This document shows, piece by piece, positions 18,785 through 27,769 of a DNA stretch of 64,000 nucleotides. Made by a program: the position numbers and the translations under genes. Where the stretch lies: NCBI GenBank assembly GCA_027306785.1, contig DAHUZB010000035.1, forward strand, positions 62,001-126,000, in the 5' to 3' direction. Numbering within the stretch: position 1 is the first letter of the stretch; the number at the start of each line of letters is the position of its first letter. The notes below the pieces were generated by a model, which was given only the letters and a program-made list of their open reading frames with translations, was not told the DNA's origin and searched no databases. The stretch comes from Vulcanimicrobiota bacterium. Its GTDB lineage: Bacteria; Vulcanimicrobiota; Vulcanimicrobiia; Vulcanimicrobiales; Vulcanimicrobiaceae.

Positions 18785-19432
18785 TCAGCGGCTGTTCTCC
18801 CGAACGATTTGGTTGACGACGTCCTTCGGCAAGCCCTGCGGAAGCATCTCCATAAACGTTCCTCCGTGCTTCCACACTCGCAGCGGTAGCGTAAACTTCT
18901 CGAGGGACATCGTGCCGTTCTGCCCCTTACGCTGCACCTCGAAATGTGCCACCGCGGGTTGGTAGACGGCGCTCGATTCGTCAATAATTATCCGGTAATA
19001 TTTGCCGTCGATCTTCGCCTGATAGTAGAGCGCGACGCTTGCAACCGGGCCTCGAGGTATGACATGGGCATATTCGAATGTCGCATCCTGCGGTAACGCC
19101 GTTGGGACGACGATAGGAAAGCCAACGTGCTGCTGAGCCTGCGCGACCGTAAGTCGATCGGCGGCATGGATCATGGGTGGTAGCGGCGTGGACGATCCCC
19201 TATTGAAGAACTTTGCGAAGCTCGCGCTCAATGCACCGGAGGCCTGCGCCGCGACGGCGCCGCTGATAAGGACGACGAGCGCCGATAATGCGTACGCATA
19301 TCGCCGCGGTCGAGCGCGCCGCGGCGCGGGCAACGATCGGAGGGCAGCCCACGCAAGCGACGGGCACCCCGGAACTCGTGCGCGCCCAAAACGTCGTTCG
19401 AGCGCAGTGGTGATCTCGCGGTCATCATTCAT
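18785..19432 (-). CDS. Membrane-anchored anti-sigma-factor-like protein
   Basis: The 215-residue protein has a short cytoplasmic N-terminus (45 residues), one TM segment (about 45-66) and an extracytoplasmic domain of the DUF4367/MucB-like type seen in anti-sigma partners (inference). It begins ATGA-overlapped with the stop of the ECF sigma gene, the standard arrangement for a sigma/anti-sigma pair. No zinc HxxxCxxC motif is present in the N-terminus, so binding to sigma would be ZAS-independent. Confidence 0.7.
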   Translation of the reverse strand: MNDDREITTALERRFGRARVPGCPSLAWAALRSLPAPRRARPRRYAYALSALVVLISGAVAAQASGALSASFAKFFNRGSSTPLPPMIHAADRLTVAQAQQHVGFPIVVPTALPQDATFEYAHVIPRGPVASVALYYQAKIDGKYYRIIIDESSAVYQPAVAHFEVQRKGQNGTMSLEKFTLPLRVWKHGGTFMEMLPQGLPKDVVNQIVRENSR

Positions 19433-19992
19433 CGTACGGTCTCCTCAAGTGGTGCCGGTGCGGTCGAATCCTGAAAAAGCGGGCGCAAGCGACGCCGCGC
19501 CGCCATCAACCTGAATCGAACCGTGACCGATGGAATGCCGAGCGCTACGCCAACCTCACGCGTCGTCAATCCGAAGAAATAGTGGAGTTCGAGCGTCAAT
19601 CGTAGGTGTTCGGATAATCTGCCGATCGCTGCCTCAAGATCGAGTCTCGAGGTTACGTCTTCTCGGGTCGAGATCGCGACCGCGGCTTCGTATCCGGTTG
19701 ATTCGCGGCTGCGTAAGCGCGCTCTCGCCCGAGCGTGATCCCGTGCGTGCGATACGATGATGCGGTGCGACCAGCCGGCAAAGGCACGCACGTCCGCAAG
19801 GTCGGGAAGCTTGGCGCAGATCGCGATGCAGGCTGTTTGGGCGACGTCTTCTGCCGCCGACGACTCGACAAGGATCGACCAAGCAGTACGATACGCATTG
19901 GGCCAGATCGAATGAACCAATGTCTCGTAAGCCCCCTCGTCACCAGCGAGGGCGGCCGAGGCCAGATCCGTTAAAGACACGGAAACCTTCAT
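19429..19992 (-). CDS. ECF-type RNA polymerase sigma factor
   Basis: From the ATG at 19992 the protein has 187 residues. Region 2 (YRTAWSILVESSAAEDVAQTA) and region 4 (LTLELHYFFGLTTREVGVAL, then SVTVRFRLMAARRRLRP) are clear. The frame is open back to 20115, but a strong terminator hairpin at 20035-20075 makes a longer protein unlikely; ATG 20019 is the alternative. The downstream gene encodes its likely membrane anti-sigma factor. Confidence 0.85.
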   Translation of the reverse strand: MKVSVSLTDLASAALAGDEGAYETLVHSIWPNAYRTAWSILVESSAAEDVAQTACIAICAKLPDLADVRAFAGWSHRIIVSHARDHARARARLRSRESTGYEAAVAISTREDVTSRLDLEAAIGRLSEHLRLTLELHYFFGLTTREVGVALGIPSVTVRFRLMAARRRLRPLFQDSTAPAPLEETVR

Positions 19993-20034
19993 ACAGACAA
20001 GACGCTCACCGACGCGCATCTGTTTGCGCTTACA

Positions 20035-20075
20035 AAAAACAAGAGCCCGGCGAACATCGCCGGGCTCTTGTTTTT
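20035..20075. terminator. Bidirectional terminator, 19-bp perfect stem
   Basis: AAAAACAAGAGCCCGGCGA, ACA, then the exact complement. The flanking A5 and T5 make it effective in both directions. It insulates the sigma gene from sequences to its right. Confidence 0.85.
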
Positions 20076-20080
20076 CATGC

Positions 20081-20136
20081 GATCCTTCGACTGCGCGGTT
20101 TCGCGCGTTGCGCAAAAACCGCTCCGCTCAGGATGA
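20081..20136. repeat. REP-like element (TCCTTCGACTGCGC...GCTCAGGATGAC)
   Basis: An imperfect dyad with ends TCCTTCGA and GCTCAGGATGAC. This is the type of short palindromic repeat scattered in intergenic DNA of many soil bacteria; two partial copies occur at 29033-29074. Confidence 0.55.
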
Positions 20137-20238: not shown

Positions 20239-20268
20239 TTGACAGTATTTCGATATTTAGCTAAATAT
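20239..20268 (+). promoter_or_regulatory. Promoter with overlapping ArsR/SdpR operator
   Basis: TTGACA (20239-20244) is followed after 17 bases by TAAATA (20262-20267). A perfect 16-bp palindrome, ATATTTAGCTAAATAT (20253-20268), covers the -10 region. Repressor binding there would block RNA polymerase, which fits autorepression by the adjacent ArsR-type gene. Transcription should start near 20274. Confidence 0.7.
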
Positions 20269-20275
20269 GGAACCT

Positions 20276-20566
20276 GTGAGTACCGTCTTTCGGGCCCTGG
20301 CTGATCCCACCCGGCGAAAAATCCTTACTTTGCTTCGAAAGGGGCCGATGAGCGCGGGTGAGCTGGCCAGCCATTTCGATGTCACCAAGGCCACGATGTC
20401 GGCGCACTTTGCGGTGCTCCGCGAAGCCGACCTCGTGGAGTCAACCAAGAGCGGCACGACGGTCACCTATTATCTGAAGCTTTCGGTGCTGGAAGATGCG
20501 TTGCTCGAATTCGCACAGCTTTTCGGCATCCAGGCATCATCTGCACCAACCCAGGAGTCGGAATGA
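20276..20566 (+). CDS. ArsR-family autorepressor (SdpR-like)
   Basis: STVFRALADPTRRKILTLL, GELASHFDVTKATMSAHFAVL and READLVESTKSGTTVTYYL form the ArsR winged helix typical of SdpR-like repressors. No metal-binding Cys motif is present. The start is set at GTG 20276 because the promoter predicts a transcript beginning at about 20274, making the mRNA leaderless; the in-frame ATG at 20267 would lie inside the -10 box. It overlaps the next gene as ATGA. Confidence 0.85.
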   Translation: MSTVFRALADPTRRKILTLLRKGPMSAGELASHFDVTKATMSAHFAVLREADLVESTKSGTTVTYYLKLSVLEDALLEFAQLFGIQASSAPTQESE

Positions 20567-22773
20567 ACGCGAAGTCCTATTCTGCGCTGACGCTCAGCGC
20601 GGCCGCCGTAACCCTTTGCTCGGTCGCCGTGAGCGGGTATCTCTTCTTTCAAAACGTTGGGAATCGGTGGGCGTATCTCGCCGCAACGCTCGTGCTCGTA
20701 GTCGGTTGGATGGCGCAACGCTTCGCCGACGATCGACGGGCGGTGCAAACATCGATCTTATTTGCCGGTCTACTGCTGTTGATCTCGACCTTAGAAAAAC
20801 TCGCAAATCACGCCGGTTTGGCAATGGGTGCCGATATGGATCAAAGGCTGCTGGGCGTGATTCTCGGCGCTGTTGTCGTCGCGCTCTCGAACGCGATTCC
20901 AAAGAAAGCAACCTCGGCGCAATCATTTGCGACACAGCGAATGATCGGATGGGCACTGGTACTTGGTGGACTCGGCTTCGCAATCGCGTGGCTCGCACTG
21001 CCCATCGCCATTGCCGGAGACGTTGCAATTGTCGTTTTGCTCTTGGGATTACTCATCGGCGTCGTCGCGTATGCTCGATCGTGGTTCGTCGTGGTGATCA
21101 CCGTCGCGCTATCGTGTATCACCGTTGTCCAAGCTCAAACACAGGACGTGAGCGGCGCATGGCACGGCACGTTACAAACCACAACCGGCCGCTACGGTTT
21201 GGAACTGCTTATCCAGCGACGTTCCGACGGAACGCTTTCAGCGACGCTTGAAAGTATCGATCAAGCGCCGGGTGAGAAAATTCCAGTCGACGTGACCGTG
21301 AGCGACGGCGACGTTAAACTGTCGATGAACGCGCTCGGTGCAAGCTATGAAGGCCATCTCGACAAGAGTTCCAGCGCGATCAATGGCGCCTGGCAACAGG
21401 GTACATCGCTCCCTCTGAGCTTCGCACGCGGCCCCATGCCAACGGTCCCGTCGATTTCAGGACTCGACGGCACGTGGCGCGCGATGTTGGTGCGAGGAGC
21501 AACCCAACTCCATCTCGTGTTGCACGTCGTTACTTCACAGCATGGGACGCGCGCAAACCTCGATTCTCCCGACATGGGCTTGATGAGCCTTGAGGTTACC
21601 GACCTCGCGCACCCGGGCGATCGCGTTCACTTCTCGGTTCCCATCGCGCAGGTAGCCTTCAACGGCAGCCTCAACTCGGCAGCAGAGATTCACGGAACAT
21701 GGCAACGCGACGGCCAGCCTCCCGCGAGCGTTACCTTTGTTCGCGAGGAGCAAGCGACACCAGCCGCATCTCCGCACCGCGCTGACTATATAACCAAGGC
21801 TGTACGCTTCCCGAATCCGCGCGCGAACATCGTTCTTGCTGGTACGCTGACGATCCCAAACGATGCGCGTCAGGCGCCGGCAGTCCTATTGATTAGCGGG
21901 TCCGGACCCGAAGACCGTGACGAAACAATCTTCGGTCAGAAGCCTTTTGCAACGATTGCCGACTACCTCACGCGGCGAGGCATCATCGTGCTGCGCTACG
22001 ATGATCGCGGCGTCGGCGAATCGACCGGCACGTTTGCAGATGCAACAATAGAGGACTTTGCGAGCGATGCTAACGCCGCCGTGGCCTTTCTGCAGGCGCG
22101 GCCCGAAGTCGATACTCATAAGATTGGATTGATCGGGCACAGTCAGGGCGGTGTCGTCGGCCCGCTTGTCGCCATGCATAACAAAGCGATTGCCTATTTG
22201 GTACTGCTTGCCGCTCCCGCAACGGATATGCGCGAGTTGTTCCTATCACAACGTCGGGCCGCTGCCGTTTTGCAAGGCGAGAAAGAATCGACGATAGCGC
22301 GAGCTGAGCCGCTGCTGGACCAGCTGTATGCGGCAACCGCAAACGCGCCCAACCAGGCGAGCGCTCAAGCGCGCATCTCATCGATGCTCACGCCAGAAGC
22401 GCTAGCGCAACTCGGCGTGTCTCCCACGCTAAAAGATGCAGTTGTTGGTCAATTGACGGGCGCCTGGATTCGCTCGCTCTTGCGTTATGATGCGCGCGCT
22501 ACGTTGCAAGCGTTGACGATCCCCATCCTTGCACTCAATGGCGATCTCGATCGACAGGTGGTAGCAGGCGAAAACGTTGCAGCAATTCGTGCCGCGACCG
22601 CAAAGAACCCTAACGTTACCACTCGCATCCTCCCCGGACTCAATCACCTTTTCCAACCGGCGCACAGCGGCACCATGGGCGAGTACGCGGAGATTCACGA
22701 AGGCTTTTCCCCTATCGTGCTCAGCATGATCGGTGATTGGATAATGACGTCCGCGCTCATGGCAAACAAATAG
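20563..22773 (+). CDS. Membrane-anchored alpha/beta hydrolase, fusion
   Basis: The protein has 736 residues. Residues 1-190 contain about six TM segments. Two related beta-rich modules follow (DVSGAWHGTLQTT near 198, LDGTWRAMLVRG near 305). From about 420 an alpha/beta-hydrolase domain carries LRYDDRGVGEST, the nucleophile elbow GHSQGG (about 525), an acid in NGDLDRQV and His in LPGLNHLF. The catalytic domain is presumably extracytoplasmic. Coupling to an SdpR-type repressor recalls sdpRI, but the membrane part is not clearly SdpI. Substrate unknown. Confidence 0.82.
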   Translation: MNAKSYSALTLSAAAVTLCSVAVSGYLFFQNVGNRWAYLAATLVLVVGWMAQRFADDRRAVQTSILFAGLLLLISTLEKLANHAGLAMGADMDQRLLGVILGAVVVALSNAIPKKATSAQSFATQRMIGWALVLGGLGFAIAWLALPIAIAGDVAIVVLLLGLLIGVVAYARSWFVVVITVALSCITVVQAQTQDVSGAWHGTLQTTTGRYGLELLIQRRSDGTLSATLESIDQAPGEKIPVDVTVSDGDVKLSMNALGASYEGHLDKSSSAINGAWQQGTSLPLSFARGPMPTVPSISGLDGTWRAMLVRGATQLHLVLHVVTSQHGTRANLDSPDMGLMSLEVTDLAHPGDRVHFSVPIAQVAFNGSLNSAAEIHGTWQRDGQPPASVTFVREEQATPAASPHRADYITKAVRFPNPRANIVLAGTLTIPNDARQAPAVLLISGSGPEDRDETIFGQKPFATIADYLTRRGIIVLRYDDRGVGESTGTFADATIEDFASDANAAVAFLQARPEVDTHKIGLIGHSQGGVVGPLVAMHNKAIAYLVLLAAPATDMRELFLSQRRAAAVLQGEKESTIARAEPLLDQLYAATANAPNQASAQARISSMLTPEALAQLGVSPTLKDAVVGQLTGAWIRSLLRYDARATLQALTIPILALNGDLDRQVVAGENVAAIRAATAKNPNVTTRILPGLNHLFQPAHSGTMGEYAEIHEGFSPIVLSMIGDWIMTSALMANK

Positions 22774-26058: not shown

Positions 26059-26210
26059 TGCCTGCGGCCGACGACGGTAAGGCCTTGGCGCGCCTACCGC
26101 TCTTTCTTTCGGCGCGCGAGTATCTTGCGCTGTCTGATGAGGTCCGCGCGCAATTCACGTGCATCGTGCACGGAAGCATCGTCAACATCAAGGAGGACAA
26201 CGAAGAGTGA
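26058..26210 (+). CDS. Small ORF (50 aa) coupled to the transposase
   Basis: MPAADDGKALARLPLFLSA, then REYLALSDEVRAQF and VHGSIVNIKEDNEE. The ATG overlaps the preceding TAA (TAATG), and the TGA overlaps the GTG of the transposase (GTGA). AAGGAGG inside its 3' end serves the transposase. This chained overlap strongly suggests a real operon gene. Function unknown. Confidence 0.6.
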   Translation: MPAADDGKALARLPLFLSAREYLALSDEVRAQFTCIVHGSIVNIKEDNEE

Positions 26211-27769
26211 GTCGTCAGCAGCGCCGCGCGCAAGAACGAAAGGTCGTCAAATCGATCGAGAAGCCTGGAGGTAAGAAGCCTTCGGCTTCGCGCTCGCTCG
26301 GCGCTCCGCAGACGCAAAACTTTTCGTATGGCGAATTAAGCGAACGTCAACAGAACGGCTACGCGCTGTGGCAGCGGGCGCAGCAACAAAACGGTCTCGT
26401 GCTCTTCGGCGACGCAGACGGTGCCCTCACCGTTTGGTTCTCACAGAACGACCCGAACCGGGCGTATCACATCAATCGCGATCTTCGGAACCGTCGCGGC
26501 ACGATGGTCGTGTCGTATGCCTGCGACTGCCCCGACTTCGTCAAGCATGGGCGAATCGATTGCAAGCACGTCTTTGCGGAGAAACTTCGCCGTGGCGAAG
26601 TCGTCGTCTCGTCGCCACCGCCGCGCAAGAACAAAACGACCAAGAAAGCTACGCGCCGACCGGCGCGCAAACGCTTCGCGCACGACGGCCGGCCGTTGAA
26701 ATCGGCTCGGAAGACGGCAAGCCGAAAGATGCCGACGCGGATTCCCGAACTGGCGCTTTCGCTCGCCCAGGGTTTCGAGCGGCATGCCAGCGGCATTCTC
26801 ATTCCGATCCGCCCTCAGAAATACAAAGGCGGCCGTAAGGGCTCGCCGCTTTCGGCGCGTGCGACCGCGCTGGTGCTCAAGGTCGCTGCAGGCCTGTCTG
26901 CGTCCGAAATGATGCCTCACTACGAGCGCTACATGGCGGACGGATTACTGCATATCAAAGGCGTTCCCGACGAGAACACGCTCTCGGACTGGATGAACGA
27001 CGAGCGCGTCACGCCCATCCTCAATGAAATGCTGCGTCAGTCGGCGTTTCCGTTCCGCCGCCGCGAGATCGGTGCGATCATCGACTCGTCCAAAGTGTCG
27101 CAACTCATGACGGCACACGCGAAGGAGGTCGACTACGGCAACCACGACCGCCGTCCGAACGCGGACTGGATGAAGGCGCACGTCATCTGCGGTGTCGAGA
27201 CGCTCGTCGTCATGGGCGTGCGGTTCAGCGGAGTTCTGGGCGAGGGAACGCACGATTCGAAGTTTCTCCGCCCGCTCGTGCAGGCAGCCGTCGGCGACTT
27301 CCCGCTCGAGTTCGTCCTCGCGGACAAGGCCTATCTTTCCGAGGACGTGCCGGAGTGGCTCGCCGATCGCGGTATCCGTGCGGTCATTCCAATCAAGAAA
27401 GGTTGGTTCCGCGACGAGAAAAAGCTGTACAACGAGGCGCTCCTGAATCTCGTGCAGTGGCACGACGCGAACAACAATCGCGATTTTCACGAGGTCTACC
27501 GCCTTCGCTCGAAGATCGAGTGCCTGTTCTCGGTGCTCAAACGCACCGCCGACGGCTACTGCTGGTCACGCGGGCGCAAGCGTACGGTCCGAAACGCCAA
27601 CGAGCCGTGCGTGGCATGGATCAACGAGGTCATCTGCAAGTTCATCTACGTGAACTTGCGCATGACGGTGAACCTCGAGGAAGAGACCGGCGTGAAGATC
27701 GACTACCTCGTGCCGAGCCGGCACTTTCCGGAACCGAACGAACCGCTTCTGAAGAAGCGCGCGGCGTAA
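26207..27769 (+). CDS. DDE transposase with N-terminal SWIM zinc finger
   Basis: From GTG 26207 (AAGGAGG 10 bases upstream) the protein has 520 residues. Residues 106-121 form a SWIM finger, CDCPDFVKHGRIDCKH (CxCx10CxH). The catalytic half belongs to the IS4/IS5-type DDE_Tnp_1 group: Asp293 in AIIDSSKVS, Asp373 in VLADKAYLSED and Glu438 in YRLRSKIECLFSVLKR. The SWIM finger is an unusual DNA- or protein-binding addition. The frame is intact and followed by a terminator. Confidence 0.88.
   Translation: MSRQQRRAQERKVVKSIEKPGGKKPSASRSLGAPQTQNFSYGELSERQQNGYALWQRAQQQNGLVLFGDADGALTVWFSQNDPNRAYHINRDLRNRRGTMVVSYACDCPDFVKHGRIDCKHVFAEKLRRGEVVVSSPPPRKNKTTKKATRRPARKRFAHDGRPLKSARKTASRKMPTRIPELALSLAQGFERHASGILIPIRPQKYKGGRKGSPLSARATALVLKVAAGLSASEMMPHYERYMADGLLHIKGVPDENTLSDWMNDERVTPILNEMLRQSAFPFRRREIGAIIDSSKVSQLMTAHAKEVDYGNHDRRPNADWMKAHVICGVETLVVMGVRFSGVLGEGTHDSKFLRPLVQAAVGDFPLEFVLADKAYLSEDVPEWLADRGIRAVIPIKKGWFRDEKKLYNEALLNLVQWHDANNNRDFHEVYRLRSKIECLFSVLKRTADGYCWSRGRKRTVRNANEPCVAWINEVICKFIYVNLRMTVNLEEETGVKIDYLVPSRHFPEPNEPLLKKRAA

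Follow-up and report, generated by a model that had tools for sequence, protein, structure and literature searches.

A predicted SdpR-type autorepressor operon encoding a membrane domain fused to a serine hydrolase

The locus described here lies on the + strand of a 64-kb stretch of DNA from a Vulcanimicrobiota bacterium (hereafter the window; its genome is G000) and consists of a promoter region and two overlapping genes. The first gene (20276-20566, GTG start, 96 aa) encodes an sdpR-like ArsR repressor that passes the SdpR autorepressor model NF033789 with 107.3 bits against a cut-off of 100. Its product is 84-85% identical to two close homologues, which are encoded by a further sdpR copy on contig C25 of G000 and by the sister species G001. 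Metal-site cysteines were looked for and none was found; since the repressor sequence contains no cysteine, it has no classical ArsR metal site, and identity as a metal-sensing ArsR/SmtB protein was rejected. The second gene (20563-22773, 736 aa) begins at an ATG at 20563 that overlaps the repressor's TGA at 20564-20566 and encodes, in order, a membrane domain, two beta modules, and a hydrolase; this ATGA-coupled arrangement, including the GHSQGG motif of the hydrolase, was read just as the initial annotation had described it. The second sdpR-membrane pair of the genome (C25, L031 2578-3997) lies on a contig that ends within a transposase-like ORF shortly after the pair, which would hide any hydrolase gene there.

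Divergent from sdpR, on the - strand at 18785-20115, are an ECF sigma factor gene and a coupled gene for a membrane protein that matches no Pfam family and is likely its anti-sigma factor. A 19-pair hairpin at 20035-20075 (dG -33.6, z -8.8), with an A-run on one side and a T-run on the other, is terminator-like on both strands; its position between the divergent sigma factor gene and sdpR is unusual for a terminator. Elsewhere in the window, GCTCAGGATGAC occurs three times (20126, 29040, and 29061) against 0.01 expected and is probably a short dispersed repeat, and a transposase-like ORF at 26159-27769 carries a SWIM-like stretch, CDCPDFVKHGRIDCKH, in its N-terminal part.

Both promoter elements were identified upstream of sdpR on the + strand. 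The -35 element TTGACA (20239-20244), read directly and identical in both paralogous promoters, is followed after a 17-nt spacer by the -10 element TAAATA (20262-20267), which reads TAAATT in the relatives. The -10 element is weak, with 3/6 matches to TATAAT in the window and 4/6 in both relatives, and for this reason a consensus scanner does not list the window promoter. Across the three promoters compared (window, C25, and G001), TTGACA, the spacer, the position of the -10 element, and the GTG have been kept; the distance from the end of the -10 element to the GTG is 6 nt in the relatives and 8 nt in the window. Assuming initiation ∼7 nt past the -10 element, the predicted leader is ∼0-2 nt long. 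No Shine-Dalgarno sequence was seen before GTG 20276, whereas the second gene has AGGAG at 20553-20557 (+, read directly). An ATG at 20267-20269 (+), in frame with the GTG and overlapping the -10 element and the operator, is probably no start: among the three genus sdpR copies it is found in the window copy only, and the frames of both relatives open at GTG. Since the ATG is missing from both paralogous promoters, the sdpR mRNA is likely to have no leader or nearly none. The initial annotation had proposed a leaderless mRNA starting from GTG 20276, for which the conserved GTG and spacing provide support of a comparative kind, and had held that ATG 20267 cannot be used, a wording that was too strong even with both relatives lacking this codon.

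This arrangement resembles the leaderless promoters of Deinococcus-Thermus, whose -10 elements lie next to the ORF (PMC12340547), in that 6 to 8 nt separate the -10 element from the start codon and no Shine-Dalgarno sequence intervenes. Here, however, it concerns a single locus family, and the genome-wide excess of the signature is slight: in sampled stretches of the window genome totalling 450 kb, TANNNT at a gap of 6 preceded 8 of 319 first starts. The window sdpR also differs from the Staphylococcus sdpR genes that we read, which have a Shine-Dalgarno leader.

We further examined the promoter for an operator. The -10 element was said to lie within a perfect 16-bp palindrome, and the palindrome, ATATTTAGCTAAATAT (20253-20268, +, read directly), was indeed found there together with TTGACA; the arms of a 24-bp version of it match at 11/12 positions. 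Perfect 16-bp palindromes are as common in the 64 kb as expected (4 found versus 4.2), but one in a 100-bp promoter is rare, arising in 0.14% of shuffles, and the 11/12-arm version is rarer still (0.02%). A different, overlapping site, GTATTTCGATATTTAGCTAAATAT (20245-20268, +), is the predicted SdpR operator. It takes up the -35/-10 spacer together with the -10 element, matches the form ATATTTAGA-N6-TCTAAATAT at 15/18 positions, shares its right half with the palindrome, and is centered 4 bp upstream of the palindrome's center. The initial annotation had made its reading depend on conservation of the palindrome in relatives. In both relatives the 16-bp palindrome is imperfect, whereas the overlapping 24-bp site is conserved; we thus rejected the palindrome as the operator, and the conserved operator is most likely the site at 20245-20268.

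The operator form used for scanning was chosen from the G327 locus of another phylum, where it is a perfect inverted repeat, and was then applied to 35 SdpR upstream regions. Scores of at least 13/18 were obtained in 30 of these 35, from several phyla, although the loci are mutually related and the counts are not independent trials; control ArsR upstream regions (n = 18) reached at most 12/18. In the upstream regions of Staphylococcus and Ruminococcus sdpR genes, the form did not score above shuffles. The site at 20245-20268 is the best in the 64-kb window (next, 12/18) and the only one at ≤3 mismatches in the 3.1-Mb genome, and the 21-bp genus version of the operator was found nowhere but at the sdpR copies, two in G000 and one in G001. 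The left half-site T[AG]TTT[AC]GA[TC] was present in 8/10 genus and family promoters and in 0/19 controls, and upstream regions of true SdpR-SdpI pairs from the same family, such as TTATTTAGATAATTGCCTAAATATC in G012, align with the window promoter without gaps. A conserved, genome-unique site at its own promoter points to autorepression, with no wider regulon in evidence. Self-repression, the GTG start, and the coupled second gene, all proposed in the initial annotation, are supported by the NF033789 score, the conserved site, the relatives, and the gene neighborhood described below.

The N-terminal part of the second gene product (residues 1-171; 20563-21075, +) is a membrane domain in which AF2 placed six helices and which is 43-44% identical to the stand-alone membrane proteins of G000:C25 and G001:C119. 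It matched neither PF13630 (SdpI), to an E value of 10, nor any other Pfam family, and PF13630 found no match across the window genome. An hhalign comparison with SdpI, in which the region N-x-I-P-K ... R-x-x-G-W was aligned, gave a marginal result (P 0.006, probability 6%) that is at most suggestive of homology between the membrane domain and SdpI. Given the missing PF13630 match and this marginal profile likeness, we did not file the domain as SdpI. Among 292 genomes, G000 (two copies) and G001 were the only ones to yield the domain; ten weak matches were considered as distant relatives and rejected, the ones inspected being unrelated reading frames or proteins, including MFS and CBS-domain proteins. 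The fold of the domain had no PDB match below E 0.1, with four of five models being poor, and no relative of SdpI itself was found by sequence in the PDB.

The six-helix protein predicted at the outset agrees with the stand-alone homologues, but in the window it is extended by a seventh hydrophobic segment, SWFVVVITVALSCITVVQA (21079-21135, +), which ends VVQA-QTQ and lies at the fusion junction, between the membrane domain and beta module 1. The stand-alone membrane proteins lack this segment, and its position matches the signal peptides of separate hydrolases. Beta module 1 (residues 196-292; 21148-21438, +) is a predicted 8-stranded barrel (AF2 pLDDT mostly 67-91) with 46% identity to the beta module of the separate hydrolase of G001. 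Beta module 2 (about residues 300-397; 21460-21753, +) repeats it, with low AF2 confidence, and has a tblastn match to the double module of G089. The C-terminal part (residues 408-736; 21784-22770, +) is an alpha/beta serine hydrolase with Ser527 in the GxSxG motif GHSQGG and a score of 59.3 bits against a cut-off of 27 for PF12146 (Hydrolase_4). By Foldseek it is closest to PET46 and other esterases and lipases (best E 6e-13). It resembles EstD-like and S33-type exported esterases with N-terminal beta modules in its GxSxG motif and its above-cut-off PF12146 score, but differs from them in being attached to a multi-pass membrane domain; EstD (NF041096) was its best NCBIfam match, at 131.7 bits well short of the equivalog cut-off of 600.

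In the sister species G001, the membrane and hydrolase genes are separate and about 100 bp apart, and the hydrolase starts with a signal peptide. At the window junction, roughly 100 bp of intergenic sequence and the last codons of the membrane gene are gone by comparison. The simplest history suggested by these sequences is a deletion that fused the genes while retaining the former signal peptide as an extra membrane segment, the seventh. Under the charged-loops-inside rule the hydrolase would lie outside; in the AF2 model, TM6 and the seventh segment run together as a single low-confidence helix, which makes the side uncertain.

The initial annotation had pointed to other genomes as a place to look for the same pair, and besides the C25 and G001 copies, sdpR-sdpI-hydrolase clusters were found. 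In a survey of 99 genomes of the family, nine had SdpI and seven a complete sdpR-sdpI pair, and the hydrolase, present in about one copy per genome in the family, adjoins five of these seven pairs. It lies downstream in G012, G108, and G089, the last with a double beta module like that of the window (beta-beta-hydrolase) but unfused, and upstream in G094. The fifth case is G072, where the hydrolase gene is split into two fragments that lie in different frames (L044 519-790), either a pseudogene or an assembly error. Since G012, G108, and G072 are close relatives, the five linked pairs amount to about three independent cases. In G032 the hydrolase is about 2.4 kb from sdpRI, and a catalase-peroxidase-like gene on the other strand (G032:C34, L047 2513-3226) lies between them; in G092 the complete pair has no hydrolase.

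In G327, SdpR is followed by a 563-aa frame composed of a true SdpI, a signal-peptide-like segment, and a hydrolase; an internal ATG could also serve as a start. This fusion is independent of that in the window. It resembles the latter in keeping the signal-peptide segment at the junction, and differs in having a true SdpI and no beta modules. G327 and the G012, G108, and G089 clusters, which keep the genes separate, all show the three functions in the order seen in the window. Among other phyla, the hydrolase also precedes sdpR in G326 and G407, and SdpI and hydrolase overlap in G209. It was next to sdpRI in 3 of 29 newly fetched loci from other phyla, most sdpRI pairs being without it. In the Ruminococcus albus plasmid pRUMAL02 (L172), a YhfC-family intramembrane protease gene precedes, with overlaps, the genes for SdpR and a DUF1648 protein; this protease represents another enzyme partner of an SdpR unit.

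In Bacillus subtilis, SdpI responds to its ligand by retaining SdpR at the membrane, with the result that sdpRI is derepressed (PMC1626106). The window operon resembles sdpRI in that the gene of an SdpR-family ArsR autorepressor is directly followed by that of a polytopic membrane protein, and its operator is common to SdpR genes that precede true SdpI genes. It differs in that the membrane domain lacks PF13630 and is fused to beta modules and a hydrolase, and in having no SdpC/SdpB match. The description of the locus as being in the style of sdpRI but with an enzyme fits the family score, the operator, the relatives, and the neighborhood. The known kind to which it belongs is the SdpR-autorepressed membrane-protein operon. 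Its partnership with the hydrolase, the fusions that arose independently in two lineages, and the cross-phylum operator appear new, as no description of them was found in the open literature searched, with most subscription papers outside its range.

Our preferred reading, which we hold with as much reserve as conviction, is an SdpR-autorepressed operon whose second gene would encode a membrane receptor domain fused to an exported hydrolase, with induction by sequestration. Building on what was computed (gene order, the fusion, family scores, the operator, gene linkage, and the missing SdpC/SdpB match), we infer the following course. SdpR would bind the 24-bp operator that occupies the -35/-10 spacer and block its own promoter. 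The membrane domain, perceiving an envelope ligand or stress, would take SdpR off the DNA by analogy with SdpI, and the derepressed operon would yield more of the receptor-hydrolase. Translation of the first gene would start at GTG 20276 of a leaderless or nearly leaderless mRNA, and that of the second would use its own Shine-Dalgarno sequence. Through the retained signal-peptide segment the hydrolase would reach the outer face and could there cleave a compound of ester- or lipid-like nature, possibly the inducer itself. More tentatively, the single protein could constitute a sense-and-destroy loop, in which the membrane domain frees SdpR on meeting the compound that the exported hydrolase destroys, and which would have arisen at least twice by fusion of neighboring sdpI-like and hydrolase genes.

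We also considered, as a doubtful alternative, that the repressor is a genuine autorepressor with the membrane-hydrolase protein as a mere passenger, an envelope esterase under its control, and that a small ligand acts on SdpR directly, without sequestration by the membrane part. This would agree with a membrane domain that is not demonstrably SdpI and with the occurrence of most hydrolases of the family apart from sdpRI. However, a membrane protein is encoded second in every genus copy, as SdpI is in sdpRI pairs, and the cysteine-free repressor offers no classical metal site. An immunity unit, whose membrane domain would resist an SdpC-like or other membrane-active peptide of competitors with the hydrolase as a second layer, appears improbable. 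TIGR04032 and TIGR04033 (SdpC/SdpB) gave no match in the window genome to an E value of 1 while detecting the B. subtilis control, which makes self-immunity to SDP toxin unlikely, and no toxin is known for this bacterial group, even though SdpI is the immunity protein of B. subtilis (PMC1626106, PMC6818787) and sdpRI lies beside toxin genes in Staphylococcus simulans. On the same SdpC and SdpB result, classification as an SdpABC-RI toxin-immunity system was rejected. Least probable is that a local deletion or an assembly artefact joined the genes without joint function, since, although the fusion occurs in one genome of the family and its parts are separate elsewhere in it, the 736-aa frame is open throughout without a stop, a single wrong base would not remove ∼100 bp and the membrane gene's last codons relative to G001, and an SdpI-hydrolase fusion arose independently in another phylum.

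Taken together, these data bear on SdpR units beyond this locus. Pairs of sdpR and sdpI occur in many genomes, at least here without a match to the SDP toxin, and the operator common to SdpR genes across phyla offers a handle by which such units can be found and assayed. The recurrence of the hydrolase as a neighbor, and its fusion in two phyla, suggest that the signal may be an envelope compound that an ester or lipid hydrolase can destroy.
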